DNA from: Cymodocea nodosa
Lineage: Eukaryota; Streptophyta; Magnoliopsida; Alismatales; Cymodoceaceae
Length of the DNA stretch: 64,000 nucleotides
Assembly: GCA_036874045.1 (NCBI GenBank)
Contig: CM072341.1
Location: 7,638,501-7,702,500 of the forward strand
Direction of reading: 5' to 3'
Part shown: piece by piece, positions 29,902 through 62,086 of the stretch
How positions within the stretch are numbered: the first letter of the stretch is position 1
Layout of the letters: every line of letters begins with the position of its first letter
The notes under the pieces: model-generated
The model's database searches: none
The model's input: the letters and a program-made list of their open reading frames with translations, nothing else
Told to the model about the DNA's origin: nothing
Translations under genes and position numbers: made by a program

Positions 29902-30087
29902 CTTACCATAGATTTTTCAACCTATTTGATTTTAAACAGTCTAAAAACTTTAAAATAACTTGAGACTTAAATCAAGAAAGTTAAACGTATGCTCAGGTAT
30001 TAATGTCTGTTTAAAAACAAGGAAGGCAGAATAAACAATGATATTGAATAAGTTGGTATCGATTTTATATCAAAGATTATTAACAAA

Positions 30088-30099
30088 GCTCTAATACCA
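30088..30099 (-). other. B1 primer-binding site
   Basis: The minus strand reads TGGTATTAGAGC two bases after the 5' LTR, a one-base variant of the initiator-Met-tRNA complement. Confidence 0.9.
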
Positions 30100-30101
30100 C
30101 T

Positions 30102-32412: not shown

Positions 32413-34021
32413 TGTTGAGTATTTTATTTTGATGTGTGTTGAATGAAAGTAATCATATTTGCTCAATTACTATTGATTGTGAAAAGAAATTAAAATCATC
32501 AATTAATATAGAAAAAACTTATTGATATAAATACTTGTCTATATTGTATCTGAAATTATACTAAGTTAATAACTAGTCGTTTCGTTGCATTAATTTCTCA
32601 TTTAACTAAACGTTAAGTTAACGTGTGTTTTTATTGAAAAGCATGATATGTTTTAAAGTTATATTTTCTATATCATGAACAGTACACGTTTAAACAACTC
32701 ATTAAGTTAAAGTGTTATTTATATAGAGGTCACATGAGAACTCGTTAAGTTAAATGCTTAAAGGTTAAAATAGGTCACGTGAGAACTCGTTGAGTTAGTA
32801 AGTAAAAGAAGAGACGAACTCGTTAAGTTAGTGTTGTACACGTAGTGAAATTATAAGTTACGAATGTTATATTGTATCACGTGAGGTGCACATGTTTAAC
32901 TCGTCATGTTAACATAACTAAACTCGTTGAGTTGCTATACTAAACACTAAGGCAACGCGTTAGGTTAGCGTTATAAAACTTAAATTATTATTTTTGCACG
33001 TGGTAAAATTCTTATTATAAAAATATTTGTCTATTACTGGTTCGTTGAGTTATCTATAACACAACGAAGATGGTTCGTTGAGTTATCGTAATAACACAGA
33101 GATAGTTTATTGAGCTAGCTACAATACTTGTCACGTGAGTTGGCACATGAGGAACTTGTTAAGTTAGAAACGTTAAGTTAATACCTACTTGTGTTACTCG
33201 TTTAGTTAACATTAAAGTAATGACTTCTTATTACACTTGATGAAAAGTTTTTTTTGAATGATAAAGTTTATTTTGTAAGAAATTTTTCAAAAATCTAAGA
33301 TTGATGATTAAAGAAAATTGGAAATGTAAACGTGAGTCAGAACGTGTGTATTTCGATGAAGGAAAAAGAAAAAACGTGAATAATTGAAAGACTAATAGTG
33401 ATTAAACGTGGAGGATATGCATGAAATGAAGATACAATATAAAAGGCATAGATTTCTTGTTGGTCAGTTATCCCTGCACACCAAAAGAAAAATCTTTTCA
33501 GAGATCATCAAAAACACCTCTTCGGGGAAAAGCTCTCAGGTGGAAGAAAATTCAATGAAGTAGAAAAGGTCAAATTTATGTCACTGAAGATTTGAAGTAT
33601 CAGATGGAAGATAATTCAATGAAGCAGAAAAAGGTAAGATATATGTCACTGAAGAGTTAAAGTATCAGAAAAAAGCAAATTCGGTGAAGCAGAGAAAGAC
33701 AAGATATTCGTCACTGAAGAATTGCTAAAGAATAAAAAGAAGAAGAAAGATCTCAAATAAGGAGAAATGTTTTAAATTCCGCAAATTAGTTTTCTTTGTT
33801 TGTAGTTATGAAATTGTATAGATGAAACATGGTATTGATATATAATTGCATTTACAATTTCTGAGGAGAATTGAATTGTATATTGTAATTGAAACCTTGA
33901 ATAAAAATGATTTTATGAAAACAGTGTCTCGACTTATTTTTGAGTTTTAAAGTTTCAATTATATTCGAAAATATTGAAAAACACAATTCACCCCCCTCTT
34001 GTGTAGTCATACGATCCTACA
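32413..34021 (+). repeat. B2 5' LTR
   Basis: 1609 bp, TGTTGAGTATTTTATTTTGA to GATCCTACA. This is the one B LTR in the window in sense orientation, so its layout is easy to read: U3 with ACGTG and AACTCGTTAAGTTA motifs, then a TATA box, then a leader with tandem repeats, then the U5 end with CACCCCCCTCTTGTG. Confidence 0.93.
33438..33444 (+). promoter_or_regulatory. Likely TATA box of the B LTR promoter
   Basis: TATAAAA, followed by GGC, lies between the motif-rich U3 and the conserved leader, about 580 bases before the LTR end. It is also present in the B1 LTRs (minus strand, near 30655-30665). The position fits an RNA polymerase II core promoter; activity is inferred. Confidence 0.55.
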
Positions 34022-34023
34022 AG

Positions 34024-34035
34024 TGGTATCAGAGG
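34024..34035 (+). other. B2 primer-binding site
   Basis: TGGTATCAGAGG lies two bases after the LTR, matching the initiator-Met-tRNA complement in all but the last base. Confidence 0.9.
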
Positions 34036-34220
34036 TTTGTTAATAATTTTTGATATAAAATCGATACCAACTTATTTAATATCATTGCTTATTCTGCGTT
34101 CCTTGGTTTTAAACAGAAATTTATATCTGAGCATTCGTTTAACTTTCTTAATTTAAGGCTCAAGTTCTTTTAAAGTTTTAAAATATTTAAAATCAAATAG
34201 TTTGAAAAATCTAATGTAAG

Positions 34221-36480
34221 ATGACTATTGGAAATGGTAATTTTTCTTTATATAAAGGCCAAAATCTTAATCGTCCTCCTTTATTTGATGGAATACACTT
34301 TGAATATTGGAAATATAGGATGACAGTTTTTCTACAAAGTATAGATCATAAGTTGTGGTTCATGATTTCTAAACCATATACTCCATTATCTACCTTTTAT
34401 AATACTTGGATAATTAATGAAAAAGAAAATGAAACTCTAAATGCTAAGGGCTTAAATATTTTATTTTGTGCATTGAGTTATGAACAGTTCAGTAAAGTGT
34501 CAGCTTATAAATCTACTTATGAGGTGTGGCATGCATTAAAAGTTTCACATGAAGTTACTTCTCATGTTAAAGAGACTAAGATAAACATGTTAATTCATAA
34601 ATATGAACTCTTTAAGATGCATGAAGACGAAAGTATTTCTGAAATGTTTTCCAGATTTCTTGATATCATAAACTCTTTAAAATGTTTAGGAAAGAATTTT
34701 GAACAGAAGGATTTGGTGAGGAAAATTCTCAGATCCCTAAGTTCTAAATGGTATTAGAAATTAATATCAATTGAGGAATCACGAAATTTAAATATTTATA
34801 CCATGAATGAACTTATAGGAAACTTAATAGCTTATGAAGTTCAATTAAATGAATCACTGAGTCACAATAAACTAAAAGTGAAGAAAGAAATAACCTTTGA
34901 AATTAATTCAGATTCTGATATATCCACTGATTCTGACGAGGATTTGATTTTGCTGACTAGGAAATTCAAGAAAGCATGGAAAGCTAGGAAACAGCAAAGG
35001 AATAAAAATGATAAACCCTCAACGTCAAAATAACTGAATGACAAGAATTCTTCATCCAAAAAGTATGTATGTTATAATTGTAAGAAACTTGGACATCTTT
35101 CTCCAGATTGTCCTATAAGGAAAAATGAAAAGTATAGTAGGACAAATCAGAAGAAGACGGCTTAGAAAACTTAGAAAAAGTTTTACAAGAAAAAGGCTTT
35201 GAATGTCACTTGGAATGACACGTCTAAAGAGTCTGAATATGAGGAATCATCATCAAAATCTTTACATTCTAGAAGAACAAGAGTTAGAAGATGTTGCTCA
35301 TGTGTGCTTCATGGCAGATGAGTCTGAGGTAATATCTGATCCTAAAAATCATTCAGATTTTAACTTTGATGAATTATTATGTGCTTATCATGCGTTATTA
35401 CAAAAAGTTAAAGTTTGTAAACTGGAAAATAAGAATATCAGAAACTCTTTGTCCATTGTGGAAGAAGAAAATTGTTTCCTGTCTACTACTTTAGAAAAGT
35501 TTAAATGTGATAATGAAAATCATGCTAGTGATTTGCATAAATTTAGATTTAATGAATGTGTCTTGCATGAACAAATACAGAATATAAATGCTCAAAAATT
35601 AAAGATAAAATCTGAAAATGAAACGTTGAGAAAAAATATAAATGATCTCGAGTTAGAGATTGATAAATTAAAAATGAGAGAGCTAGAGTTAAATTCTACC
35701 ATTGAAAAAATGGAATTTAAGTCAAACTAAGTTAGACAAACTAACTAGTACCCCTACAGTGTCATATAAATATGGCTTAGGATTTGATTATCTTGAATAT
35801 CTTGAATCTCAAGCCAATAAAGGATTTATTAGTTGCAGTTTAAGTAAATCTAAGACTAAAATTCCTTTTATCATGAAATAAGGTAATAAATACGTAGAAG
35901 TAGGTAATTCAAGAGATGAATCATGTAGTAATAATATAAATCAATGTGATTTGTCTAAATGTACTTCTAACATGACTATTAATGTTTCTAAAAATCTTGT
36001 TTCTTGTTCTAGAAATTCAGTTTCTAATGTTTCTAAAATTTTAAACAATTGTAGTAAACTGAAAATTCAGAAACCCGAGCATGTAATTCAAAACACTGGT
36101 ATTAGATGAATTACTCATTATGCATGTGATAAATCTGAAAATTCTTGTGCAGAAAAAGATTTTGTATGCACTGAAAATTCAAATATAAGTACAAAATCTT
36201 AATATGAACTTACTGAAATATATGAGCATGACCAAAATAAATTAACATCTGATAAAAATCAGTTTGGTCTTGATTATACTACATCTAAAAACAAAAAGAA
36301 TGATTATAAGAGCAATAATGCTATAAGTATGATGCTAATGATAAGTCAATAGTACTTACAACTAATAAGAATGTAAATGATAATGTTAACCTGTTTTTAA
36401 ACAAAAAGAAGAAACATGCATTTAATGAACTTGGTCCTCAACAACATTAGGTACCAAGAAAAAGTTTTTCTTAATTTGTT
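34221..36480 (+). pseudogene. B2 gag with zinc knuckle and coiled coil
   Basis: It starts at Met 34221 (MTIGNGNFSLYKGQNLNRPP). A UBN2-type copia capsid region fills the first 178 codons (FEYWKYRMTVFLQSID, SAYKSTYEVWHALKVSHE, FKMHEDESISEMFSRFLDII). It is followed by a linker (34803-35033, DSDISTDSDEDLILLTRKFK), a CCHC zinc-knuckle region near 35068-35110 (CYNCKKLGHLSPDCP), and a coiled-coil section (35203-35730, EQIQNINAQKLKIKSENET). The tail towards 36480 is Asn/Ser-rich and decayed. It is a sister of 27851-29901. Broken several times. Confidence 0.87.
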
Positions 36481-40960: not shown

Positions 40961-42154
40961 TGTTTGGGTTTTCCCAACACTACATTAGAAAAACTTGGAT
41001 TTGTTACTTCTGTTTTTACTTAGTTAATTTATCTTTATGCCTATTCCTTCTTTTAGAAGTAAACAAACAACCTTTAATACAATTTAGATATTAATTTCAA
41101 TTTGTACTTTAACTGCAAGTGCACAGTGTCTATTGTATCAGTGTGCAAGTACAGGTCGATCTCATAGGGAATTGCTGAAAAGTTCAGAACTATCCATTTG
41201 TTAACAATCAAATTTATATATTCAATAAGCTCTCCATTGAATTACAGTTAACTCAACGGATAAAGTTCGTTGAGTTATGGATAACTCAACAGACTAACAT
41301 CGTGGACTTAAGTTAACTCCACGAGCTTGTCTTTTCTTTTTAATACTGCTATTTACAGATGAATTCGGCCATCCATTAGGCGATTCCACAGATTGTAAAT
41401 AACATCAATTAAGCTCTTTAATGTTAGTAAACACTAGATTTATCATTAAGCAATACTAACATTCAGATAATTTAAATAGTAACCATTAAAATCTTTAAGT
41501 CTTTTGAACAAACCAATTTCAGTAAACTGTAAAACTAAAACAAACATAAAACAATCACAACACTGATGAAGATAACATTAATCACCATACAACACTCAAA
41601 TACAACCTACAAACATAGATAAATTGTTTTTGGTATTTTTGTTTTAATATGAACATGGAATGGGGCGAAAGGTGAAATGTAAAGTAATCTCACTCAACAG
41701 TAAATACTTCCGACACTACTTGCAACGTGATTACACCATTGAAAATTAAACCACTTACAATTATATCTCCTCTCCCTATAGAATAGTAAGTCCAGAATTG
41801 CAAGATAATCTTCTCTTCAGCATACAGGCATCAACCCGAAGCCAAGGCTAAAAGCTTTACGATCTCCTGAAATATGAGTCAGCGCCTAGTGAAAATGGCT
41901 TCCCTTCCTGCGACGCGACCACTCCTCACAGTGGTTGTCAGGCACTGTGTTTGGCTTGGAATCGACCCGACATCAAGAAAGTATTCTCACAAACCTCCGA
42001 TGGTTGGTGATTATGGTGGATATGGTGGTGGTAACGATGGTTGGTGTGATACTTCGGAGAATCGCCAATACTGTCTGCAGAAAGCTCGGTACTCCTCCTC
42101 TGTATACACTGGCCATCCATCAATCACACACCCCAGATTTCTTTTTCTTCTTTT

Positions 42155-42164
42155 CTTTTATATT
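42155..42164 (-). promoter_or_regulatory. Likely TATA box of the C LTR promoter
   Basis: The minus strand reads AATATAAAAG, at the boundary between the motif-rich U3 and the GC-richer leader. The same box is at 48711-48721 in the forward LTR, and a weakened form is in the D LTR. The position is as expected for a core promoter; activity is inferred. Confidence 0.5.
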
Positions 42165-42573
42165 TCTTTAGTAGTAACTGCTTCTACTTGAATGATCGGT
42201 TGGATTTCCTTCATTCATATCAACGGCGATGATTTCTTCTCCCTGTGTAATACATGCAATCGTGGTTTTTCTTCCAACTGTCCTGTTTCTAGAACCGCTA
42301 CAGTGGCATATTAGAAAATAAATAGTCTATGGAGTTACAGATAACTCAACGAACTTTCTTCGTTGATTTAACTATAAAACACGAGCATAAATTTAACTAT
42401 CTAATGCTCAGGTGCATTTCGGATACTTATAAACTTAACTATCCAATGTTCAGATGCATTTCGGATAGTTATAGCTAACTCACCAATATATAACTTAAGT
42501 AAATCTACTAGATCTCGACACGTGTCAACAGCAGTTTAATAATAAAATACCCATTTCGGAGAGTTACAGGTAT

Positions 42574-42608
42574 AACTATCCGATGCTCAGCTACAATTTC
42601 GGATAGTT
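42574..42608. repeat. Inverted repeat AACTATCCGA/TCGGATAGTT
   Basis: A perfect 10-bp stem with a 15-base loop in the C3 LTR U3. Similar pairs recur about every 60-150 bases in this LTR, in other C LTRs (for example near 63704-63740) and in the U3-like segment of element A. Confidence 0.85.
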
Positions 42609-43020
42609 AGAGATAACTCACCGAAAGTTCACTTAAGTCATGCATTATGGTTTCGACACGTGTACTTCTGGAAATAATAAAATATTCTTTCAAAACATAA
42701 CTGTTCGGCAATATAAACATAACTATTCGACATATTCGGTCTATTAAACATAACTGTTCGAAATATATTTGGTATGTTAAACATAACTGTCTGAAATATC
42801 AGAAAATTCGGAAACTTAAGAATTTCACAACCTGCAACTTACCGACAGTTCAAAAATGTACTAAATTGACATTAATTCCTCAAAATTAAGCAGATTCTTC
42901 AATTAAAGTATATAACAGTGCAATTATAACATAATGACTTAATTCTCATATGATAAACTAAATATTATACAATTAACCGTCATTTAACCGTTAATAATAT
43001 GCACTTTTTCATTCTAAACA

Positions 43021-44730
43021 CTTCCCCCATACCTAAATTTTGCTAGTCCCTTAGCAAACTAAGATCTAATTAATTGGTCTTTCAAAAAGTACTAGAATTA
43101 ATTCCTCTTCTTTCTTTTTTTTCTGTTCAGCTTAAAAATATATATTCTGTAAGTTTCAGTAATCAACCTGCAAATATACTTAGAATATATGTCAATTACA
43201 TACAAAGTATATCATCTTCACATAGGTGTTAATTATATTATCATTTGTTCTTCTTTTCATCATCTACTATCCTGAATTTTCCAATAAGATTTCTAGAAGA
43301 ATTTTCAACAACATATGCATCAAAGTACAATCAAATTCAATATAATTAAGACAATTAGAATAAAGAATTGTATCTCTATTAAAACAACTTCAAAAGTCAA
43401 TTCTAAATTCATATTACACCAATTCTAGATAACATAAAATATACACGATTCATAAGATATCTGTATTTCACAAAACACTTGTATCTTTTCAGAACAGTAT
43501 ATGTTTTTTTTTTTTTTTCGATCTTTAAAAGTTAATTTGACAAGCTTAAATCATATAGGAGCTTTCTAATGTACCCATGTAACGAGCTTTCAATCAATAA
43601 TCCCAGATCTGATCAGGATCTTCGGTTGCTAGATTTCAAGAGTCCTTTTTCAGGTCAACAATCCTTACATACCTATCTGCTCAAGTACAAAAGGCTTGTG
43701 ATCAAACAAGTCAATAAACTCTCAATTTTTCCTTTTTTTTCCTTTTTTCTTTTTTTTTCAATCAAAATACACACAAAACAAAGCATTAATCACATACTGT
43801 ATATGTACGTATTTCATTAATATAGATGAAGTAAAACACCAATCTCATATAGTCCTGTTTCTATCATTTACTGAAAATATGAATCCATAACAATAAGCTC
43901 ATACTTTTTATGCAGTTTAATAAGATCTACACATAAATCATTCTACAAGTTCAATCAGTTAAATTAAATGTATCTTTAATCATATGTGTTTCATTTAATC
44001 TAGAATTTACATCTCAACTCCTTCAGGACTTCATATAATTTACTGATTTTTCATTAAACATTCTGATTTCATTTTAAAATCGTGAAACTGTTAAACTCAT
44101 GAAATTCAGAAAAATCATAAGATACTATATCTAGATTTGCATAAATAATAAATTCTATAGCATCATATATACCCTTCAAAATATAACATTCAAGCAGTTA
44201 CGATTTATAAATTTTACAGTCTCAATTATCGGATAGTTACAGCAAGTTCATAAAAATTTTCAATTTCCACAACTTTGCAGTACCATTTTAATTAACAAAC
44301 TTACATGGCTATTACTTTAATTACCTCCCCCTCATACCTACATTTTGCATTGTCCTCAATGTAAAAAACTTGACAATAAGTACAGTAATTGTAGCAAGCA
44401 TGAATACAGTTTTGTTTGATTTAAAATTCAAGGTAAGTAATTGGTTACATACCTTGTTACATTTGTCTCTCCTTCTGCATATTCTGATTTTTGATTCTGA
44501 AAACTTTTCATTCATAGATAAAAGCAAAATATAAAACGAAATAACACTTAACAGATATTAATAAATCAGTGTCTTGTGTGGAACCTAGGCTCCTATGCCT
44601 ATGGTGGCTCACAAGCAAGCCAATTTGTTTCCCAGAACAGATACCAACAAATTGGATTGATATTTTGTTTTTTTTTGTTTTTATACTTAAACGTAGAATA
44701 CATACAACATTAAACACACAAAATTACAGC
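43021..44730 (-). other. C3 terminal polypurine tract and 3' noncoding module
   Basis: The terminal tract is at 43021-43035 (minus strand: TATGGGGGAAG before the LTR). A second, internal purine tract is at about 44325-44337, next to the complement of GAGGACAATGCAAAA. The block between them matches 2800-3980 (C1), 39080-40400 (C2, inverted) and 9205-10180 (copia B1). The stretch 44338-44730 links it to the F-box stop codon. No coding sequence is seen. Confidence 0.75.
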
Positions 44731-45858
44731 TTAAGAACATGATTGAAAAGTAGGAACAAATGGAATAAATGTATCTGTCCAAGCAAACTTTTTAGGCATC
44801 GTTTTTCTTGCTATTAATTCTGTTTTCATGCAGTTCTTGTTTCTTCTTAATTTGTAAATGTGTAATATATTATAAATTCCAAATACAAGTGTATTACCAT
44901 TAATGATATGAAATGCAGAAAGGGATCATTTTTTGTTCCAAGGTAATGTAGCAGTTTCTATTTCTACATCTATTTCAATATACTTCTCTTCCCACTTCCA
45001 TTCATTAATGTCTTCCATAATCCATATTTGAAATTTCATCAGTTCATCCCACCATCGTATCAGACATAAAGTAGGATCATCTTCTTCATTATACCACATT
45101 CATATTTGAATTTTATTAAATTATGTAGATGGTGGTTTAGCTATATCACTCGGTATAGGTAAAATTTCTATATATTCATCATAATTGTCTATGCTCACTA
45201 TGTATAAATCAGATCCAAATGCAATTGAAATATCTGTGACAAGATATATATATCCATCAAGTATGACATGTAATGATTTCTGTCCTAGATATATCACAAT
45301 ATTTTCATTCCAAGATCTATTCAAAAAATTATACACACTTAAGCGTAAATCTTCACCCCAATTTCTTGTAGGTCTCCAATAATATAATTTTTCAGGAATT
45401 GTAGAATTTTTATCAGAAAATATTAAAGCTGATCCACAATTTACAGTTGGTACTTCAAATCTATTAGGTCTTCCTATATTCCATTCTTCTCCTGTTATAA
45501 GATTTCTTATCAAAATATTAGGTAATAATAAACTTGCATACATTGGTCTCGTCTTGTATATGATTAATCCTTCATCTATCCCCATAATATGATTTATTCC
45601 TTCTAATGCATTGGGTGGAATTCCAGTAGTTTATTCCATAGCCAGATATTCATGATTAATTGAACTACGATTAAATGACCTCCATATGAATCCATCTCTA
45701 AACTTAGTCATTTTTGCAGCTTGTAGTCCTTGAAAATATTTTTCTTCAATACAGTTTTTAATTTCCTTTGATACACAACACAGCCTGCACAGATCTTTGG
45801 ATGACAAGTTACTTAGTACTTCCCTTAGTGCATCCAATAGTAATTGCATCAATTCCAT
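44731..45858 (-). pseudogene. Captured F-box protein gene inside C3
   Basis: A host-type F-box gene of about 375 codons in one reading frame, intronless, on the element's sense strand just after gag. The N-terminal F-box is clear (ALREVLSNLSSKDLCRLCCV then SKEIKNCIEEKYFQGLQ, about residues 10-45). It is followed by the F-box-associated propeller-like region: PNILIRNLITGEEWNIGRP, KLYYWRPTRNW, VSIDNYDEYIEILPIP, a WWDELMKFQIWIMED stretch, EWKWEEKYIEIDVEIET, GNTLVFGIYNILHIY, and a closing AWTDTFIPFVPTFQSC. Such proteins are substrate receptors of SCF ubiquitin ligases; the F-box binds SKP1. It is interrupted about three times, so it is not expected to make full protein as it stands. The C-terminal part recurs in C1 (31878-32412), but the gene is absent from C2. 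The assignment is firm from the motif order; the donor gene is unknown. Confidence 0.85.
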
Positions 45859-46038
45859 TTGTTGATTCTGTATAACACAAACAAAAATTTAGCAAAGACA
45901 AAAAATTAACATAACTACTGCACACCCTCGTGGAGTTAAGGAATAACTCAACAGACTAAGTTCATTGAGTTAAGGACTAACTCTATGATACTATTAACTA
46001 AAAAATAAAAACATATATACATACAGATAGTTGCTTTT

Positions 46039-47382
46039 TCATTCAGCTATCCTCCCAGAAGAGGTATCAATTTCATAGATCGTTCTATTGACAGGATTAG
46101 GTATAGCTTGTATTGGCAATCCTCTAGTAGGTCTACCTTCCATTGGTTCCTTCTATCTAAGTGGTATATTCCTATTCTGATTTTGAATTGCAGCACTTCC
46201 AAATACAAAATCTAGACGATTGTTTAATTGTTGGATTATCTTTTCTAATTTCTCTATTCTAGATCCTTGTTCCAATAATGCTTCATAGCTTATATTCTTC
46301 TCATTTATATTTTCTCCTCCCTAGAAATTATTGTTTCTCCAAGATAAATTTGGGTGATTTCTCCAATTAGGATTATAAGAATTTCCCAAGTTATCTCTCT
46401 GGTTTCTAGCATAAATAATATCTAAATCATTTATGTTTGCATTCTTTTCTGCTAACTTTTGATTTAATGATAACTCTTCTATTTTCTTTGTTAATTCATT
46501 TAATTTCACCTCAAGCATAGTATTTGAATCTATTTCATGCATTCCTCTTGGCAATATTTTTTTATCTACAATAGCTTCAGCCGAATTTTCCCACTATGTA
46601 GTTCCTTTTGCAAAGTTTTCTAAATATGTCCATGCTTCTTCACTACATAACTTTAAAAATCCATTTTGACAAGTATATTCTAATAAAGATTTTGTTGAAA
46701 CATTCATGCCTTCATAAATTATACCTATTAATTGTGCTTTACTCATTATATGATGTGGACATTGAGTCAATAAATCTTTAAATCATTCAAAATATTTCCA
46801 GAATGATTCACCCTGTTTTTGGCTACACATTAAGATTTCTTTCTTCTTTTTAATCGTTTGATGTGTTGGATAATATTTTTCCAAAAATATAGAGCAAAAT
46901 TCAGTCCACGTAGAAATTGAATCAGGCGATAGAGTATATAACCATCTCTTAGATGTGTCTTTTAAAGAAAAAATGATATATCTAAGTTTAATAGCATCTA
47001 CACTCATGTTCGGCATTTTCATCATTTGACAAACTTCATTAAATTCTCTAAGGAAATAATAGACATCCTCTCTTTCTAAATCATGAAAATGTGGCAATTG
47101 ACTAATATAATTAGATTTCAATTCAAACCTATCTCCCTCAAAGTTTGGCAATTGAATACATGAAGGTTCATCAATTAATTCCAGATACTAAATCTCTCCT
47201 AATGGTTTTTCTATTGGAACAGCCATCTCTACGTTCTCCTTGAAAGAAAGTTTAGCTACACCCCAAAGAATTTCGTTAAAGTTCAGTTTAGAAAATTTTT
47301 CAATACTCCTTTGCAATGAAAATTCCTAGATAGGTGTTCTTACTAATCGCTTAGTGCTTAGAGAACGAGTCCATGTGCTCAT
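46039..47382 (-). pseudogene. C3 gag (Athila type)
   Basis: A region of about 448 codons in one frame, from a Met at 47382 (MSTWTRSLSTKRL) to the stop at 46039-46041. It carries the retrotransposon gag domain (QLPHFHDLEREDVYYFLREF, DAIKLRYIIFSLKDTSKRW, LYTLSPDSISTWTEF, YYPTHQTIKKKKEIL, KQGESFWKYFE; 46783-47151) and the Athila C-terminal motif YNPNWRNHPNLSWRN (46321-46370), within a Glu/Lys-rich coiled-coil-like section. Only about 50 bases separate the start from the B LTR piece, so the leader is not seen. Protease and pol are not present downstream; the F-box gene follows about 180 bases later. It has about half a dozen breaks. Confidence 0.87.
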
Positions 47383-47430
47383 AAATAAATAGCAGAATAT
47401 TAATTACATACCAGTCTGAAGCTTTCTATT

Positions 47431-47586
47431 TGTAGGATCGTATGGCTACACAAGAGGGGGGTGAATTGTGTATCTCTACTATTTTCTGAAATATAATTAA
47501 AACTTTAAAACTCAAAAACAAGTCGAGACATTGTTTTCATAAAATCATTTTTATTCAAGGTTTCAATTACAACATAGAATTCAATT
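47431..47586 (-). repeat. Short piece of a family B LTR
   Basis: It starts with the LTR terminus TGTAGGATCGTATGG and follows the B LTR to about 47586, where the minisatellite begins. No other part of that element is adjacent. Confidence 0.85.
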
Positions 47587-47701
47587 CTCGCAGACCGCTT
47601 GAAGCTAGCCGACTACTCGAAAGCTCGCAGACCACTTGAATCTCGTCAACTGCTCGAAAGCTCCTAGACCGCTTCAAGCTCGCCAACCACTGGAAGCTCG
47701 C
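47587..47701. repeat. GC-rich minisatellite, about six 18-19 bp units
   Basis: Units begin at 47587, 47605, 47624, 47642, 47661 and 47679, with a partial unit at 47697. They alternate between two types, CTCGCAGACCGCTTGAAG and CTCGTCAACTGCTCGAAAG, so the higher-order period is about 37 bp. Base composition is far richer in G and C than anything else nearby. It is not found elsewhere in the window. The right end abuts the first base of a C LTR. Confidence 0.85.
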
Positions 47702-49219
47702 TGTTTAGAATGAAAAAGTGCATATTATTAATAGTTAAATGATGGTTAATTGCATAATATTTAGCTTATCATATAAGAATTAAGCCATTATGTTATAATT
47801 GCACTATTATATGCTTTAATTGAAGAATTTGCTTAATTTGGGGGAATTAATGTTAATTTAGTACATTTATGAACTGTCGGTAAGTTGCAAGCTGTGAAAT
47901 TTTTAAGTATCCGAATTTTCTGATATTTTGGACAGTTATATTTAACATACCGAATATATTCGGACAGTTATGTTTAACAGACCGAACATGTATCGAATAG
48001 CTATGTTTAAATTGCCGAACAGTTATGTTTTGAGAGAATATTTTATTATTTCCTGAAATACACGTGTCGAAACCATAATGAATGACTTAAGTGAACTTTT
48101 GGTGAGTTATCTATAACTATCCAAAATTGCAGTTGAGCATCAGATAGTTATCCTTGTAACTCTTCGAAATCTCTTTTTATTTAGAAAATAGCTGAGGACA
48201 CGTGTCATGTTCTACGAAAGTGACTTAAGTGGATTTTCGGTGAGGTAGGTGTAACTATCCGAAATGCATATGAGCATCGAATAGTTAGACCTGTAACTCT
48301 CCAAAATGTTATTTTATGATTAAATTGCTACTGACACGTGTCGAGATCTGGTAGATTTACTTAAGTTATATATCGGTGAGTTATTTATAACTATCCGAAA
48401 TGCACCTGAGCATCGAATAGTTAAGTTTATAAGTATCTGAAATGCACCTGAGCATCGGATAGTTAAATTTATGCACGTGTTTTATAGTTAAATCAACAAA
48501 GAAAGTCCGTTGAGTTATCTGTAACTCCACAAACTATATATTTTCTAATATGCCACTGTAGCGGTTGCAGGAACAGATAGTTGGAAGAGAAAAACCATGT
48601 TTGCACGTATCACGTAGGAATTCAATCGCGTAAGGAGAAGAAAGCATCGCCGTTGATATGAATGAAGAAAATCCAACCGACCATTCAAGCAGAAGCAGTT
48701 ACTACTGAAGAAATATAAAAGAAAAGAAGAAAAAAAAAAGAAGTGTGTGATCGATGGGTGGACAATGTGTACAAAGGAAGATCGACGACGCAATTCTCTG
48801 AAATACCACACCAACCATCATCATCACCATCACCACACCATAATCACCAACCATCGGAGGTCTGTGAGGATACTTGCCTGATGTCGGGTCGATTCCGAGC
48901 CAAACACAATGTCTGACAACCACTATGAGGAGTGATCGTGTCGCGGGAAGGGAAGCCATTTTCACCAAGCGCCAACTCATATTTCAGGAGATCGTAAAGC
49001 TTTTAGCCTTGGCTTCGAGTTGATGCCTGTATGCTGAAAAGGAGATCATCTTGCAATTCTGGACTCGCGATTCTATAGGGAGAGGAGACAGAATTGTAAG
49101 TGGTTTAATTTTCAGTGATGTAATCACGTTGCAAGTAGTGTCGGAAGTATTTTTTGTCAAGTGAGATTACTTTACATTTCACCTTTCGCCCATTTCCATG
49201 TTCATATTAAAACAAAAAT
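47702..49219 (+). repeat. Family C LTR, forward orientation, partial
   Basis: It starts TGTTTAGAATG and is collinear with the reverse complement of 40961-43020 up to the CCATGTTCATATTAAAAC region, with the TATA box (48711-48721) and leader (48545-49075). No purine tract precedes it, so it is a solo LTR or a 5' LTR. At 49220 a B LTR terminus follows directly. Confidence 0.85.
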
Positions 49220-49613
49220 TGTAGGATCGTATGGCTACACAAGAGGGGGGTGAATTGTGTATTTTTAACATTTAAGCCTTTAACTTAACGAGTTCTCACG
49301 TGACCTCTATACAAACAAAACTCTAACTTAACGAGTTGTCTAAATGTGCACTATTCATGATACAAAAGATATAACTTTAAAACATATCATGCTATTCAAT
49401 AAAAACACACGTTAACTTAACGTTTAGTTAAATGAGAAATTAATGCAACGAAACGACTAATTATTAACTTCAGATCCAATACAGACAAGTATTTATGCTA
49501 GTAAGCTTTTTCTATATTAATTGATGATTTTAATTTCTTTTCACAAGCAATAGTAATTGAGCAAATATGATTATATTCATTCAGCACACATCATCAAAAC
49601 AAAATACTCAACA
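49220..49613 (-). repeat. Shortened family B LTR
   Basis: Both LTR termini are recognisable (TGTAGGATCGTATGG at 49220 and ATACTCAACA at 49613), but the copy is only 394 bp. No target duplication is found: the left flank is the C LTR and the right flank is unrelated sequence, so the right junction is rearranged. Confidence 0.85.
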
Positions 49614-50513
49614 CCATTCAGTAAATATTCATTGTCGGATGAAGTTGAATCAATTGCTTCTCCTTCCAGTTCCTCCAACGCATTCTCCTTTCTTTTAAAA
49701 GTGATGGTAACTCGTAAATAACATTTTGGTTTATATATATAATGTACATCCATAAAGTGAATAAATCTCGTTGCAAGAACGTGTCTTGCAACGTGCATCG
49801 TGGTTCCTATTTTTATGGATATGTGTACCACTATTAATTTTAAATTTTGGTAACCGCTAAACCAACGAAGTTTCGTTCGTGGTTAAAAGAATAACTATTC
49901 TGCTTAATCCACGAACTAACCTCGTTGAGTTACAGATAACTCAACAGAACACAGTCGATTACTATTGCTAACTCCACGGACTAACTTCGTTGAGTTACAA
50001 GTAACTCAACGGAGTGACCTTATATTATATTACTGACCTCGTGGAGTTACAGTTAACTCAACGTACTTACTTCATTGAGTTAACACTTAGTAACCTCTAA
50101 GCTTTACTCTCGTAAATTCCTCTCTGTTATTTTCTATTTCATTATGCTAACTGAAATAAAGTTAAATCTATGTCATTAATGCATCATTCTCATCAAAATT
50201 CATTTAAATCTGAACATTATATAAAGATTTAACTTGTAGGTCATTTTATGTTATGCAGAATTTACATTTTACCTTGCAACATGCAGAAATTTTTAAGCAT
50301 TTATCTTGTCATTCAGCAAATTGTAAATCTATTACATATTCATTCATAAAGTTCCACAAATTATATAATATTCAATAAATTCCATTCATTTCATATTCAC
50401 AACACGTATGAAAATTGCATCTGAAAAATTATATTCATTAATATGAATCAATTACATTACAAATACATCATACAATTTCATATAATTTTACATAAGTAGA
50501 CGAACAATACAAT
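49614..50513 (-). other. Noncoding stretch 3' of the third aORF
   Basis: There is no clear gene. The minus strand at 49614-49831 is open (TFKRKENALEELEGEAIDST, then SDNEYLLNG), but I do not recognise it. From 49850 to 50080 it carries repeated inverted motifs such as AACTCAACGGA and TTCGTTGAGTTA, much like 41220-41340 and 56930-57060, which links it to the gypsy family C/D. The remainder is AT-rich. Confidence 0.5.
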
Positions 50514-52586
50514 TTAATCTCTATTCCTAAGTTCATCTACTTCCTTCTAGAGTTTTTTTAATTGAAGTTCTAATTGATTAATTCTTTCTATAGCTCCTGT
50601 AAAGCCTCCAAAAGCTACAGCTATCTCTGCAGCTACAAAATTTCTGTATTCTTTCACTGAAATGGTTCTTGATCTGATCCTTTTTTATATCCATTTAGTG
50701 AAATCGATACAGTCCACCATCAGTAGTGGAATCAAATCTCCATAAAACAATTTTTTCTTGACTACTTTCAGTTTGGAGATAAAAACTGCAAACCAATTTA
50801 TTTGAATCTTGTTTACTACTGCATATGTGGCTCATTTGACAAATTGACTCAGTTCTATGTCATGGCCCTATCGTTGATAGACATTCTTAATTAAAATGTT
50901 AGCTACCATGTGTGCTTTACCATTTAAATGCTTCAGTCTATTTAATAAAGGCACACCAGGATTGATAGCCAAACTATCCTTGATTTCTTGTTCTGTCCAC
51001 TTGACGGCAGTTGTACTTTCCAAAATTTCCTATCCTTCATTCTTTAATCCAAAAATGTTGTGGAGAAGCTCTAGTGTTATTTGTACATCAGCTTCCTCCA
51101 CGTTGGAAATTAATTTTCCTTCTTCCTCTCTCAAATTTGCATAAAAACAAGGCACTAGATTCTCATACACTACATGCCCTCTTTCTTGAGAAATAAACTG
51201 CATTAGACCTTGGAATTCAAATAAATCTTTTATTTCTTGCATTCCATCCTAATTTACTAGTCTATTGTAAATAATATCGTAACCTATTATTTCTTGATAT
51301 TTGGTATAGGCTTCCTGACTACAAAAATGTACTTTATTCAAAATTATTGTTTCAATCGGGTCAGGAAGGTGACTTTATTGTTCTAGAGGGATTTGTTCTT
51401 GCTCTTCCTCTTCTATAGGCTGCATTTGAACATTCTTTACAGATTCCTGAATTTTTGCTTTTGCTTCTGTCTATGGTGGTGAGTCGGCAGAACTCTCCAC
51501 TCTGTCTTGAATTCTTTTCATATATTGCTGAAGAGTTTCTTGCTCTTCAGTGGAATCTATGAAATTATTTTTGTCCAAATGGCTTCTTTCGTTCTCTTCA
51601 TTTTCTACTCTTTCTTCTTCCTCCTAACTAACAATCTGTTCTGTTACTGTTCTTTCCGATTCTATAACAGATTGGGATGGAGTCTCGGGCAATTCAGTTT
51701 CTACCCTAATTTCTGTTTCTTCTTGTACAGGCTATAGACTAATTTCAGCCTGATTTTCTTCTTTTCTTTGCTCTTGCTATTGCAGCTCCTCCTACTCCTC
51801 AAAATCGGATAGCAGGTTGATAAAAATTTTCTCCACAGGCCCTGTAAAAATTGGTACTTCAGATTTAATTTCCTCATTTTCAGGCATTTTTTCTTTTCCT
51901 TCTTTTTTCTGATTAGTTGTGCCTGTTCTTCCTCTTCATCTTCTGAAATTAAATCTACAAAAGTAGGCTCCACAAGCGCTCGAGCCACAGGTACTGACTC
52001 TTCCTGTTTAACTTTTTCTATAATTGCTAGTCTCGAAGGACCAGCTTCATCTCCTTTTGCAGCAGGTTTGGCAATAGCTTCTTGATGCTATTTAATTTTG
52101 ATTTTATATTGAGCTTTCAAATTTTCTACAACCCTTTTTTTGTAAAGTGCATCAAACACCAGGTGTGCTTTAGCCACTGCCATATCTTATGATTCTCCTT
52201 GGTTTTTCCCAACTTGAACTAGTGCTTGAAATTCCTTTAACACTTCTTCAGTTGAAGGCCCCATCATTTCTGCTCGTGCCAACAGCTTAAATGGTGGAAC
52301 TGAAGGTCCTAGCTGTTGTTCCTCAGGAACAGGTCTTTGAGCAGTTGGCTAATCTTGTTCTTCAATTGCCTCTTGTTGTTCTTGCTGCCATATTTCCCAA
52401 CTTCCACGACTAGCAATGCACCTTTTGAACCATAATCTGGCCTTGCGCTGGATTAGCTCTAGGGCTACTTCATTATTCGCCCTGATTCTTCTTTCTTTAC
52501 TAACTGCAATTTCTATTGCTACTCTGATTCGTGTCTCCATTATCTGGGGTATTTGTATACCATAATCTACTAATATTCTTCTTAAT
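50514..52586 (-). pseudogene. Third, diverged aORF (putative plant transposon protein type)
   Basis: The middle domain is recognised from EIKDLFEFQGLMQFISQERG, LVPCFYANLREEEGKLISN and LLHNIFGLKNEG (51030-51242), which parallel the A aORF (IRELFEFQGLLTLFL, CFYSNLIVEEG, QVIGLKNEG) at roughly half identity. The N-terminal part (52349-52580) is Arg-rich and helical (RIRVAIEIAVSKERRIRANN), followed by a long Glu/Gln-rich linker. The C-terminus is coiled-coil-like (INQLELQLKKL, KEVDELRNRD), with a stop at 50514. Ownership is uncertain: it adjoins A2 at 52587 but lacks the usual noncoding block, and may be the env-position ORF of gypsy D into which A2 inserted. Broken several times. Confidence 0.6.
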
Positions 52587-52707
52587 CTAAAAACTATAAT
52601 TCGAAAATAGATGTTTTGTTTTATTTTATTTTTTTTGTTTTTAATGATAAAGACATTAAATTCTAAAACTACCTTATAACAAACCAAAATACAATGAACA
52701 TGACCAT

Positions 52708-53379
52708 TTAAATATCAGATAACCTACAGATACCAAGTTCTAATCGTAATTTTGAGAATGTATTTTCATCTAAGGGTTTTGTAAATAGATCTACTAATTG
52801 TTCTGTGGTAGAAACAAAATTTAATACTATTTTTCCTTTTATAACATTATCCCTTAGAAAATGATGTCGAACTTCTATATGTTTTGCTCGTGAATGTAAG
52901 ACAGGATTTTTAGATAAACTTATTGCAGAACTACTATCACAGAAAATCTTAGTTGGTTCATAGTTTAAATTAAAATCTTTTAAGGTTTGTTTGATCCATA
53001 GGATTTGAGCACAGCAAAGTACAACAGCTATATATTCAACTTCAGTTGTAGATAATGCTACACAATTTTGCTTTTTGCTAAACCATGACACTAAAGAATT
53101 ACCTAACAATTGACAAGTGCCATTGGTGCTTTTTCTTTCAAACTTACATCCTGCGAAATCAGCATCACTATAACCTACTAAGTTTAAAGAACTGTGTTTA
53201 AAGTAAAACAGTTCGAAATTGATGGTTCCTAATAGATATTTAAAAATTCGTTTAACAGTAAGTAGGTGTGATTCCTTAGGATTTGATTGATATCTAGCAC
53301 AAGTACACACACTAAACATAATATCTGGTCGATCTTCTTGATAAAAAGAGTGTGATCTGCCTTTCCCATAAAATACCAT
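52708..53379 (-). pseudogene. A2 RNase H and adjoining RT end
   Basis: Motifs: RPDIMFSVCTCARYQSNPKE, ESHLLTVKRIFKYLLGTINF, GYSDADFAGCKFERKSTNG, SWFSKKQNCVALSTTEVEYI, KNPVLHSRAKHIEVRHHFLR, and the end LVDLFTKPLDENTFSKLRLE. This is the copia RNase H and the conserved pol C-terminus. It is very close to 17768-18493. The 223-codon stretch is open. The pol upstream of it is incomplete. Confidence 0.9.
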
Positions 53380-53439
53380 TTTTCCATAAGAAATTTAGAT
53401 AATCTTTCATACCAAGACCTAGGAGCTTGTTACTAATAA

Positions 53440-55646
53440 GACATCATTTATAAAACATTTCTCAATTACCTAAACCTTACCAGACCCAAGGATATTTGTT
53501 TTGCTTTTATTTCCAAAGGTAACTTGTCCGTTCTTGGTCTTTGTTATTTCTATAAGTAATCGTATATCTCCAGTCATGTGGCTGGATGCTCCACTGTCCA
53601 TTATCCATTTTGATTTGTGTATCTACAAAATAGTCAAAAAGAGATTTTATCTCTTGGAACCCATTTTTGAGTGGGTCCAAGAATTTTAGAGAGAGTCATA
53701 TCAAAATAATCCATATTTTTAGACTTCAACTTATCTATTTTCTGATAATTATTTTTGCGTTTCTTTCTCTTAGTGTTATAATTATCAGAACATTTATCTC
53801 CATGTAAACCAAAGTTGAAATTTTCATTTCTAACATTATTTGATTTCCAATATCCGATATTCTTTAAATATGAAGAAAATTGATCAAGAATATTAAAATT
53901 CTCAAATGTCTTACCTTGATTCTTCTGAAGATTTCTTTTGAAATTCTTACATCGTGTGCTATCATTTATATGCTGCATTTCATCAATTTGCACATATTTT
54001 TCTCCCTTTTTGATTACACACGGAATAGTTTTTCTCTTACTATTCTTAGTACTGGAAATAAAGATATTATTTTTAACAGTACCATCATGCAATATATAAT
54101 TTTCAGAAGATGTATCGTGTAAACCAATACCATGTTTTTCTACATTTGATATTTTACTACTGAGTTCATTTGTTAAAGTTTGACTATTATTCCATTTACT
54201 TAATATAACCTTTTGATCGCAGACTTTAATCTTTAGCACATCAATTTTTGAATTTAAATCAGTAATAGTCAGTTCCAGTTTTTCAATTTCACATATCATT
54301 TTCTTCTTATCAGCAATTAAATTTTCACAATCAGCATGCAATTTTCTTTCTATAGTAGTGAACTTTAAAATTTCCTATGCATGCCTTTGATTTTCTTCTT
54401 TAAATTTATTCAACATAGAGTTCAAAAAATCAATCATATTTTCAGATTCATCTAGCATTTTCCTAGTGTCCTTTCTTTCAATTTTGACTTTCTTATATTT
54501 TCTGGCCAGTCTATTGTATTCAACAAGTAATCCATCAAAACTATCAAAATTAGCATTTTGATTAGAGGATACCTCATTGGATTTTGCCATAAAGCATACA
54601 TTTGCCAGATTTTCTTCTGAATCTGATGTTGATGAGGATTCATTGTCTGATGTTGAATCCTTTGTTTCTTCACTTTGTGAAGCTGAAGAGTCATCCCATG
54701 TCACTTTAAGCGCCATTCTCTTTCTGAATTTCTTATTCCTGAAATTCCTCCTCGAATTCTTCTTATCTTTGTTGAGAGGACAATCAGTTTGAAAGTGACC
54801 CGGCCTGTTGCACTTGTAGCATATACTTTTGTCTTTTGTAAATGACTTCTTCTCCATATCTCCAGATGTCTTTGCTGACCTGAAGTTCCTGCGTTTCTTC
54901 AACAGATTTCTAAATTTTCTAGTCAACAACAATAAATCATCGTTAGAATCACTAGTGACTTTTGAGACTTTATCAGCCTCAAAAGCCAGATCTCTTCTAG
55001 GATTTTTCCCTTTTGGATCTAAATGTTGTACTCCATAGGCTGTTAGATTTCCTATGAGATCATCGAGAGTATATGTATTTAAGTCTTTGGACTCTTCAAT
55101 AGATGTTGTCTTTTGAGCCCAAATTTTAGTTAAAGATCTAAGGATCTTTCTTACCAAGTCTTTTTCCTCGAATTTCTTGCCTAAAGATTTTAATGAATTT
55201 ATAATCTCAAGAAAACGGGAAAACATGTCAGAGATACATTCATTTTCGTGCATTTTAAAAAGCTTATATTTATGTACTAACATATTGATCTTAGATTCCT
55301 TGACCTCATTAGTACCTTCGTTGGCAACTTCTAATGCATGCCATATCTCATATGCAGTTTGATATGCAGAAACTTTATTAAATTGATCATGAGATAAAGC
55401 ACAAAACAAGATGTTTAAACCTTTAGCATTCAGTGTCATTCGCTCCTTTTCATCAAAAGTCCAAGTATCATATGGAGTCGTAACTAATACTATAGGATTG
55501 CTAATTATATGCCATAATTTGAAATCGATTGACTGAAAAAATACTTTCATCCTATATTTCCAGTAGCTATAATTGCTACCTTCAAACATAAGAGGACGAT
55601 TAGTGGTCTGTCCTTCAGTCATAACTAAGATTTCAAAATTATCCAT
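53440..55646 (-). pseudogene. A2 gag (446-codon open stretch), coiled coil and protease start
   Basis: The long open stretch 54375-55715 encodes MDNFEILVMTEGQTTNRPLM (Met at 55646 is the likely start, matching the A and B gags). It has a UBN2-type capsid region (YSYWKYRMKVFFQSIDFKLW, FKMHENECISDMFSRFLEII, KDLVRKILRSLTKIW), the zinc knuckle CYKCNRPGHFQTDCPLNKDK, a basic patch (SRRNFRNKKFRKR) and an acidic Ser-rich stretch. The coiled coil continues in 53634-54341 (LIADKKKMICEIEKLELTIT), ending GPTQKWVPRDK before the protease region near 53450-53640. Gag is nearly whole, with about one or two breaks. Confidence 0.9.
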
Positions 55647-55736
55647 TTTAAACAGATGATTCGAAGTAAATGACAGGAAAAACCAATTCCTAAATAGAGA
55701 AATGAAGGCTTTCAAATGCTTTAAACAGTTTAAAAT

Positions 55737-55748
55737 GCTCTGATACTA
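55737..55748 (-). other. A2 primer-binding site
   Basis: The minus strand reads TAGTATCAGAGC, as in element A, two bases after the LTR. Confidence 0.88.
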
Positions 55749-55750
55749 GT

Positions 55751-56916
55751 TGTAGGATCGTCAGTATCACAAGAAGGGGGGTGAATTGTGTCTTTAGTAA
55801 TTAAACTAAGGGATAAAACAAGAGCACAAAACACTCGTAAATGAAATTCTATTCTTTTATTTCAAGACAGAATTTACAATATCTTTTCAGCTCAATTCCC
55901 TTCTTGACGGTTTTGATACAGTAATTTTTGATATACAATTCAAATAGGAAAACAAAGCTCTTTTTCAAAACTAATTTTGAATTGTATCTCTTATTCTCCA
56001 ATTGTCGAATTTCCAGACTTCTTAAGTTTGCAGCTCCTTTTCTAAAATTGCTTGGAATTTCGAACTTCTTCTGATGTTGGAGAACTTTTCAGAATATGAA
56101 TATTCAAACTTAACTTTTCAATTAGAGATCCAGATTGAATATTCAAACTTGGTTTTTGAGATTGGGATCCTCTATTGTAATGTAGCTCGTACTCTCTATT
56201 TGTAGTCGAACTCTATTGTCTTTCACGTTCAGCATGTTCATCCACTTGATCCACAATCCATAACCCATAATCCTCGTACTAATTCTCTCTTTAATCCAAA
56301 TTACTTTCTACTTAAATTTCCACTTTCTTCACTAACAATCTGAGTTTCCACGATCTCCACTCGTAGATTCACCGAAACTTTATCTTCCTAGATTCTTGTA
56401 GAATATCTTCTAACTCTTCGATTTAGCCGAACATTTATCTTTTAACTCCTGTCAAAACTCGAACACTTATCCTTTAACTTTTCGAGTTCTTGCACCTACA
56501 AAATACGTGACTAAACAAAGAAACTTATCTATTCGTTAGTCCTTTTATAAAACTCAAACAATTATCTATCCATGCGTATAAAAACTCGAACAGTTATCTA
56601 ACTATTCGATTTTTCATTATCGAGCGCACATGGAAAACACGTGACAACTTAAAACATTAAAAACACACGTGCGGATAACTTAACTATACGAGTTTTTAAC
56701 ATAAAGTATTCGACAAAAATGAAACGTTAACTATCCGAAAGTTTAACTATTGCAAATTTAGCTCTTCGGAAATCCTTAATTTATCCGACATAAAAATGAA
56801 ACTTTTCGATAATCTGTTAACTATTTTATACTTAGAGAAATATACTTAGAGAATATTATGTAGACTTATTTAAATACGTTAATAAAGCATACATCATCAA
56901 AATTAAATACCTAACA
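55751..56916 (-). repeat. A2 5' LTR
   Basis: 1166 bp, TGTAGGATCGTCAGTATCAC to AAATACCTAACA, with one unit of the 32-bp repeat (near 56721). It is the shortest A LTR here. Confidence 0.92.
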
Positions 56917-57228
56917 CAACTATTAATATTTTATCTACGGTCAAAACTACAGTACTCCGTTGAATTATAGTTAACTCAACAGAATAAGCTCGTTGAGTAA
57001 CTCAAAACTCAACAGAGTAAGCTCGTTGAATTAAGCATAACTCAACAAACTCCCTATACAAACAAATATAATAATAAAAATACTACAGATAATAGTTTTT
57101 CTTTTTTTTCTCTCGGTTTAACCGATACTATGTTTCGATCAGACCTAATTTTTTCAAAAATTAATATACATATTTTCTTATGTTCCAGTCATATCAATGG
57201 ATCCGATCGACTGAACTGTAACGATTTT

Positions 57229-57260
<32 letters not shown>

Positions 57261-57440
57261 TTTTAATGTATGTTTTTTTATTATTTAAATTTAAACATAA
57301 AAACTGATTTCTTACTAAGTAAAGCTCGAGTAATCCTCTACTCTGACTTCTTCTATAATTCCAAAGGAGCTTTTTGGTATTTTCAGAATAAGTCTAAGTC
57401 TTTGTCCATTTACTTTAAATATATTCTAATTTTTAAGATT
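56917..57440 (-). other. D noncoding region after pol, with a TA microsatellite
   Basis: No convincing ORF. 56930-57060 holds repeated AACTCAACAGA and GCTCGTTGAGT inverted motifs. A (TA)n run occupies about 57234-57261. Confidence 0.6.
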
Positions 57441-57446
57441 TTCAAT

Positions 57447-58540
57447 TTAAATAACTCTAGAATGATAAATATTTCGAACTATATAAGGTCCTCCCCATCT
57501 ATATCTTAATTTTCCTAGATGGTTATGGAGTTTAGCTATATAAAGATATACTTCTTGTCCTATTTCAAAGATTTTTGGAATAATTTTTCTATCATGCCAA
57601 AATTTAATTTTCTCTTTTTCTCTTACCGTCTTCGAATAAGCTTCATTTCTAAATTCTTCTAATTCAATTAGTTGCATTTTTCTATTTTCAGCAGCTTGAT
57701 TTAAATTAGTGTTCAGAGTTTTTCATGCCCAATAAGCTTTATGTTCAATTTCAGTAAGTAGATGACAACTTTTTTCATATACTAGCCTAAAAGGTGACAT
57801 ACTTAAGCTTGTTTTATAAGCAGTTCTATAAGCCCAAAGTGCATCTATCAATCTATTAGCCCAATCTATTCTAGTAGGATTTACTACTTTTTCTAAGATT
57901 AACTTAATTTGTTTGTTTGCACTTTCTACTTGTCCACTTGTTTGCAGATGATATGATGTTGCAATTTTGTGGTTTACTCCATATTTCTTCATTAAGGCTT
58001 CAAAACTTCTATTACATAAATGAGTTCCTCTATCACTGATAATAGCTTTAGGTATTCCAAATCTGGCAAATATATTTGTTCTTATAAATTGTATTACCAC
58101 ATTGTTATCATTAGTTTTTGTAGGAATAACTTCTATCCATTTAGATACATAATCCACCCCCAACAATATGTAATTAAATTGATTAGACATAGGAAATGGA
58201 ACCATAAAATCTATTCCCCACACATCAAAGATTTCAACCTCAACAATAGGATTAAGAGGCATCATATTCCTCTTTGATATTCTTCCTATTTGTTGACATC
58301 TTAAACAACTTAAGCAATATTTATGAGCATCTTTGAATAGTGTTGGCCAATAAAACCCACATTGCAGAATTTTTGCAGTAGTTTTCCCTGAACCAAAATG
58401 CCCTCCACAAGCTTGGTCATGACAAAAAGACAATATGCTCGGATATTCAGTTTCTAGAACACACCACCTTAAAACCAGATCAGGACATTTCTTAAATAAG
58501 TATGGGTATTCCCAATAGTAATATTTTACTCTTGAGAAAA
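57447..58540 (-). pseudogene. D integrase
   Basis: It includes the zinc-binding HHCC region (CHDQACGGHFGSGKTTAKIL, then CLSCLRCQQIG), and the catalytic core with WGIDFMVPFPMSNQFNYILL, VSKWIEVIPTK, IISDRGTHLCN and GQVESANKQIK, which supply the D-D-E residues (57723-58433). The C-terminal region has FEIGQEVYLYIAKLHNHLGK and LRYRWGGPYIV, a GPF/Y-type module (57447-57677). It is typical of Athila and related gypsy integrases. Broken about twice. Confidence 0.92.
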
Positions 58541-58556
58541 ATAATTTCTTATCCTA

Positions 58557-60400: not shown

Positions 60401-60448
60401 TAAGGATATTTCTAATTCCTAAAACCTTTCTGGTTTGAAAATATTTAA

Positions 60449-62079: not shown

Positions 62080-62086
62080 TAAAACT

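Follow-up and report, generated by a model that had tools for sequence, protein, structure and literature searches.

How does a plant gene come to lie inside a retrotransposon, and does the element make use of it? These questions are raised by a stretch of 64,000 nucleotides from Cymodocea nodosa (contig CM072341.1, positions 7,638,501 to 7,702,500), here called the window, which contains three related copies of a long terminal repeat (LTR) retrotransposon, C1, C2, and C3. In C3 a gene for an F-box protein is found at 44731-45858 on the minus strand. F-box proteins are adaptors of SCF (SKP1-cullin-F-box) complexes and steer other proteins towards destruction. The reading favored here, to which we give a probability of about 0.72, is that a plant F-box gene was acquired by an Athila-type lineage of Ty3/Gypsy elements, which retains it 3' of pol as an accessory gene in the position of env, the envelope gene of retroviruses.

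The F-box gene and the element around it

The F-box frame runs for 375 codons from 45858 to 44731 and is interrupted by in-frame stops at codons 76, 246, 253, and 311. Its first 75 codons, which are open, match the F-box profile PF00646 (E 3.2e-8, 33.6 bits; Pfam cut-off 20.5 bits). When the frame is read through with X at the stops it matches TIGR01640 (F_box_assoc_1) with an E-value of 1.3e-6 and 28.0 bits, which is below the curated cut-off of 37.9 bits, and FBA_1 with 0.012, likewise below cut-off. Copies with an open frame at other loci reach better scores with both profiles: PF00646 gives 1.4e-10 for locus L019 and 3.3e-9 for L033, both above cut-off, and TIGR01640 gives 2.6e-7 and 1.3e-8, respectively. 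The window copy, with its four stops, is a pseudogene, and its identity as an F-box gene stands; the F-box-associated (FBA) region is probable. The initial annotation had described a nearly full-length gene of about 375 codons; the domain was confirmed by hidden Markov model (HMM) search, but the gene is decayed.

A search of the genome with TIGR01640, in which 150 of 1,637 candidates were scored, gave 145 listed matches, 33 of them above the cut-off outright and 5 more together with neighbours in frame. No matches were obtained when the F-box protein was used in protein sequence searches or in a search of viral contigs, and PDB sequence searches gave nothing useful. A protein search with gag found 10 short metagenome proteins that have no genomic context.

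Judged from collinearity with a continuous locus elsewhere, C3 and the pol genes at 57-61 kb belong to a single Athila-type element, which extends from 40961 to beyond 64000 and is split by nested copia insertions. The name Athila, used provisionally, follows from features typical of the group (the primer binding site (PBS), an NHPN-type gag motif, and a long LTR) together with the Pfam match of gag. The DNA upstream of the F-box in L012, the continuous locus, maps in order to the split pieces of the window, so C3 forms the 3' half of a pol-bearing element. These 4.9 kb correspond to 57024-56917, 52593-49614, and 47430-45859, and the gaps between the pieces are the copia insertions; positions 109-389 of L012 (281 bp) are not represented in the window. 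The initial annotation had called the element gag-only. This is ruled out by the collinearity and by the presence on the same strand of protease (PR), reverse transcriptase (RT), RNase H, and integrase (INT), from which C3 has been cut off by copia insertions. An earlier idea, that the pol element of the window has a post-pol spacer of its own homologous to the gag-F-box spacer, has been superseded, as both belong to one element.

The order of the element is LTR, PBS-like site, 5' open reading frame (ORF), PR, RT, RNase H, INT, several ORFs, gag, F-box, 3' region, polypurine tract, and LTR, all on the minus strand. The 5' LTR (62087-64000) runs off the window; where it overlaps with the 3' LTR, the two have 94.1% identity (1783 of 1895). 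It is followed by the PBS-like site and the 5' ORF region (60965-62086), and by pol (57225-60964; PF00078 5.7e-22, PF17917 4.2e-34, PF00665 7.7e-14), where PR, RT, RNase H, and INT stand in the Gypsy order, with Asp_protease_2 (1.1e-4) just below cut-off. Comparison with L012 identifies 52594-56916 as a nested copia-type insertion. The post-pol ORF region at 49614-52593 aligns to L012 390-3360 with 93.2% identity, and one of its ORFs is weakly similar to Transposase_32 (9e-6, below cut-off). Nested copia LTR material lies at 47431-49613, holding an Athila LTR fragment (47702-49218). The gag-like frame (Retrotrans_gag) at 46039-47226 is broken by stops and matches PF03732 with an E-value of 2.7e-10 on 46783-47187. 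The F-box gene thus lies in the sense direction between gag and the 3' non-coding region, as originally described. This region (43021-44690) is common to C2 and 2662-4320 and ends in the polypurine tract GGTATGGGGGAAG. The 3' LTR (40961-43020; TGTTTAG...CCCAAACA, 2060 bp) is inserted in the LTR of C2. The LTR divergence (K) is 0.0616, which with assumed substitution rates gives the window element an age of some 2.4-4.4 million years.

A PF03732 gag after pol, with none at 60965-62086, is an unusual gene order. No PF03732 match was found between the LTR end and the protease in the two copies read, the window element and L052, which is collinear with the window 5' region (96% over 1122 bp); in L051 this part is rearranged. 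The 5' ORF may represent a gag that has diverged or been shortened.

The association of F-box and element recurs in many copies in the genome. A 26-base F-box probe, with up to three mismatches allowed, has 3,873 sites (1933+1940) in the 375-Mb genome, while the reversed control has 0. In a DNA search with the F-box sequence 40 of 4,388 candidates were scored and 41 matches were listed, from which 20 loci were taken with 10 kb each; the sampling leans towards C3. All 20 loci have the F-box, then the same 3' region, then at least part of the LTR, and in 18 of them gag, in some cases partial, adjoins the F-box. Sequence in common with L012 extends upstream for more than 2.5 kb in the same order in 16 of the 19 other loci, while L020, L024, and L025 share 0.8-0.9 kb only.

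A genome search with the INT profile gave 150 listed matches among 5,238 candidates. Seven of the 41 F-box matches (the window element included) have one of these on their own strand no more than 15 kb upstream, and none lies downstream or on the opposite strand; the distance is 5380-5426 bp in three cases. Within 10 kb of the listed Pfam F-box matches (150), the counts upstream on the same strand, downstream, and on the opposite strand are 4, 0, and 0; for the listed TIGR01640 matches they are 2, 0, and 1. On one genome contig (contig C1), 6 of 9 listed INT matches fall in the part covered by the 100 listed probe matches, and for five of these six a probe site follows in the same orientation no more than 20 kb downstream, at a distance of 5.0-6.4 kb in four cases. 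These observations support that the F-box gene was captured and has multiplied with the element in thousands of copies. The claims that the gene was copied along with the element and occupies an env-like position are supported, and none of the 20 sampled loci is an F-box gene that lacks an LTR.

The position of gag admits another history, which we regard as possible though rather unlikely. The whole post-pol module (extra ORFs, gag, and F-box) may have come from recombination with a second, possibly gag-only, retroelement that was the first to carry the F-box. A gag-type domain after pol would agree with this, as would the lack of a PF03732 match between the LTR and the protease in either of the two copies examined, and C2, which has gag and the 3' region in the same order. 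Against it stands the shared upstream sequence of the 16 loci, and a recombination of this kind bears on the origin of the element and not on its present structure, an Athila-type element with an F-box gene downstream of pol.

A probable intron containing gag

The initial annotation had called the gene intronless. This is correct for the frame itself, but a probable gag-containing intron precedes it at 45868-47411 on the minus strand, with GTATGT as its donor at 47411 and ATACAG as its acceptor, the last base of which is 45868. Before other copies were inspected, three possible donors and five possible acceptors had been listed for the stretch from 47437 to 45840. They included ACTG followed by GTATGT at 47411 as well as TTATACAG at 45868, which precedes the ATG at 45858. 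In L011 and L018, the two of the 20 loci that are devoid of gag, GAAAGCTTCAAACTG or GAAAGCTTCAGACTG is joined directly to AATCAACAA, which is followed by the ATG. The excision corresponds exactly to 47411-45868 and follows the GT-AG rule. GTATGT is present in all 14 loci where the donor region was found; in the other six loci, including the two spliced ones, the region was not found. The A of the acceptor is kept in 26 of 26 copies.

Since two loci lack exactly a GT-AG intron with both sites among the earlier candidates, spliced RNA has probably been reverse-transcribed, at least once and perhaps twice. Loss of gag by a DNA deletion, or a single event inherited by both loci, is very unlikely, but has some points in its favor. 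The gag-less state is seen in only two of 20 loci, other loci carry other deletions, and the splicing is deduced from genomic copies. L011 and L018 moreover share 92.8% identity in the 401 nt that immediately precede the F-box, and the supports in the F-box tree are low. What speaks for splicing is that each breakpoint falls on a site from the small set listed beforehand, one on a GTATGT donor and the other on an AG acceptor. In addition, the F-box tree does not group L011 with L018, and over 2.7 kb further upstream they are 85.5% identical, compared to 91.8% for L011 and L012.

The element thus appears able to splice out gag ahead of the F-box, and the F-box gene looks like a spliced accessory gene in the env position. 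A short env-type F-box mRNA might arise if a second splice started in the 5' leader, but L011 and L018, the spliced copies, still hold the region upstream of the intron.

Probable constraint, origin, and possible role

An open frame of about 379 codons is found in 5 of the 20 loci, and in 5 of 7 further element-borne copies which were fetched via TIGR01640 matches and picked for long open frames and HMM scores. The 11 overlapping pairs of intact copies have ratios of nonsynonymous to synonymous differences (pN/pS) of 0.30-0.56, while neutral simulations using the copies' own mutation spectrum gave 0.85-1.22 (P 0.037 or less each). The pair C1-C3 was not selected for intactness; it has 16 changes at second codon positions compared to 29.0 expected (P 0.0015), and its amino acid changes are milder than expected (P 0.005). 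For gag, the pair C3-C2 has a pN/pS of 0.30 compared to 0.79 under neutrality, a value reached in 0 of 2000 simulations. These results make it likely that the F-box is under constraint, although weaker than that on gag. Among the private changes of the F-box copies C3 and L009-L028, C to T and G to A predominate, the pattern that DNA methylation would be expected to leave.

Several observations weigh against an F-box gene kept in use by the element. Both copies in the window, C3 and C1, are dead, and the TIGR01640 scores of L019 and L033 stay below cut-off. The structure model of the protein is poor (predicted local distance difference test score 46.5), and a fold search with this model against the PDB gave no match at E 0.001; the titles of its fold matches are mostly those of propeller-bearing proteins. 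The G of the acceptor is kept in 21 of 26 copies. The intact pairs were selected for intactness, L032-L036 also from the top of the HMM list, and just 6 of the 11 show a depletion of changes at second codon positions with P 0.05 or less. For C1-C3 the pN/pS is 0.58 compared to 0.85 under neutrality (P 0.066), stop changes are not fewer than expected (6 vs. 5.4), and a wrong frame of the same alignment also gives P-values of 0.04 for pN/pS, 0.02 for mildness, and 0.02 for identity. Fixed-versus-singleton tests against clade-A singletons gave p-values of 0.03, 0.61, 0.75, and 0.11, so they are mostly not significant; the first comparison made against all singletons gave 0.10 and the codon-position test 0.16. 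Signs of the purifying selection looked for among the copies are thus seen in the intact ones, while the C1-C3 and fixed-versus-singleton tests are weak or mixed.

The F-box might then be a passenger, picked up once and carried without use, with its copy number due to the element's own success. The 15 of 20 sampled copies not open to about 379 codons, the fixed-versus-singleton results, and the existence of C2 without an F-box would fit this. We consider it unlikely, as intact copies from clades that are 9-15% apart keep the frame at the low pN/pS values given above, the splice donor is conserved wherever its region was found, and a precise excision is seen in two loci. Further, a relative with 33% amino acid identity also adjoins a stretch resembling the end of an integrase.

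This relative, L029 (G000:C7:17066100-17068300), is the best TIGR01640 match listed for the genome (50.1 bits when scored by itself, above cut-off), and the 33% identity to the C3 protein extends over 250 columns. It starts about 250 bp after the stretch that resembles an integrase C-terminus (52.8% over 36 residues, E 4e-9), and a gag-like stretch is found downstream of it. No other parts of pol were found in the 5.5 kb upstream (L037), where copia-type frames are present. This single locus suggests that the association with an F-box is older than the Athila-type family studied here, and L029 perhaps represents an older F-box-bearing lineage. No host parent gene was found among the eight open TIGR01640 matches fetched of the 145 listed; seven belong to the element family and one is L029. 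The best score listed is 49.8 bits (L029), and no high-scoring host FBA gene is listed, which would be odd for a flowering plant.

As to function, unspliced RNA would give Gag and Pol, and spliced RNA would give the F-box protein. The protein is predicted to bind SKP1 as an SCF adaptor, while its FBA-like C-terminal part would pick the target for ubiquitination by SCF. By analogy with the polerovirus protein P0, this target would most likely be a host restriction or silencing factor acting on the element. We put forward only tentatively, as somewhat more likely wrong than right, the full picture of an old Athila lineage with its own SCF adaptor in the env slot, in which gag lies in an intron after pol, Gag is made from unspliced and the F-box protein from spliced RNA, and a host silencing or restriction factor is removed via the ubiquitin system. 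The protein might instead regulate the element's own products, for instance the turnover of Gag. Splicing would make Gag and the F-box protein alternatives of one transcript, which agrees with such a role, but we hold it to be improbable.

Neighbouring copies and known systems

C1 was originally said to have the same gene at the same place. The gene is present there, at 31878-32412 on the minus strand, but only as its last 535 bp, with 84% identity to C3. The fragment is flanked by two copia insertions, with one LTR starting at 32413 (plus strand) and another at 31685 (minus strand), and it is truncated because of the LTR at 32413. The copia insertion that begins at 31685 has its other end at 4321, where the target duplication, AGGAG, is identical, and 4320-2228 (minus strand) is therefore the continuation of C1 towards its 3' end. 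The copia elements 27966-31685 and 32413-36156 stand head to head around the F-box fragment as a 3.7-kb inverted repeat (89.7%), and both seem to be inserted in one and the same Athila copy. At 1-940 the start of another C3-type LTR is found, apparently inside the LTR of C1 and running off the window.

C2 (37698-40960, plus strand) goes straight from gag into the 3' region: the gag match stops at 38673 and the shared 3' region begins at 38695, with no F-box between them, as had been reported. The 3' internal regions of the copies are 84-87% identical; a BLAST identity of 79% is superseded, as that alignment had included the LTR. A segmental duplication of C1 and C3 is not favored, as both the LTRs (C3-A 72.3%, C2-A 80.7%) and the flanks differ. 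LTR sites favor grouping C2 with A (75 vs. 48 and 30), while those in the 3' region are divided (C2=A 121, C3=C2 114, C3=A 62). A loss of the F-box by C2, with C1 and C2 as sisters, is thus no more than a possible reading. Two other long ORFs in the window, 13812-15731 and 6698-8740, look related to each other and are without gag. One is very weakly similar to Transposase_32 (E 0.0075), and the former adjoins LTR-like sequence at 16133-16619; both perhaps belong to further elements of the Athila group.

The literature, covered largely by listings and passages, yielded no retrotransposon family in which an F-box ORF has been described as a fixed gene. We file the element with the plant LTR elements that have acquired a domain, the F-box version being new. 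A close parallel is found in Phalaenopsis, where Gypsy elements carry an ORF for an AlkB/2-ODD demethylase of N6-methyladenosine (PMC9289625). These are also large plant Gypsy elements with an added host-type domain and many copies, but the domain there is an RNA demethylase, and here it is an F-box. The same study screened 121 angiosperm genomes, and of 15 domains PMD, G-patch, AIR1, DUF1409, YgdH, L26, B3, ArgoL2, and 2-ODD are named; the word F-box is absent from its text. TR-GAG elements (PMC8704663) resemble C3 taken alone, with gag and LTR and no pol, but C3 is part of an element with full pol.

Sense additional ORFs (aORFs) of the env-like type are found in Athila and barley Bagy2, and for Bagy2 splicing has been reported (PMC7264820). 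These also lie in the sense direction between pol and the 3' LTR; in the present element, in contrast, the ORF codes for an F-box protein, and a gag-like frame located after pol lies within the probable intron. An F-box adaptor has an obvious readout, binding of SKP1 and loss of a substrate, which makes the role of the ORFs in the env position of plant elements testable.

The polerovirus protein P0 is a viral F-box-like silencing suppressor that acts on ARGONAUTE (PMC3588083). It is likewise an F-box-type SCF adaptor encoded by a mobile or viral element, but its target is ARGONAUTE, and the protein described here is of the plant F-box/FBA type. VANDALs are DNA transposons. Their VANC proteins, likewise encoded by the element, counter host silencing (PMC5735166, PMC10398659); they are not F-box proteins. 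The Thlaspi arvense gene TaChr6G576, an 'LTR-gene' of the F-box family, became LTR-associated by retroduplication (PMC8764390). It is an F-box gene tied to an LTR retrotransposon, but is described as part of the expansion of a host gene family by retroduplication and tandem duplication, and the passages on it mention no family with a fixed F-box ORF. Element-borne copies like those described here may inflate the counts of F-box genes in plant annotations.

Transduction of host genes into plant LTR retrotransposons is known from maize Bs1, tomato Rider, and surveys of rice and sorghum, and some of the sorghum captures are under purifying selection (PMC13317346, PMC3726574). According to a review abstract, such transduced genes are present in one or a few copies (PMC7264820). 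The F-box gene, in contrast, is found in thousands of copies that occupy one set position in the element, and both open frames and a splice signal are seen.
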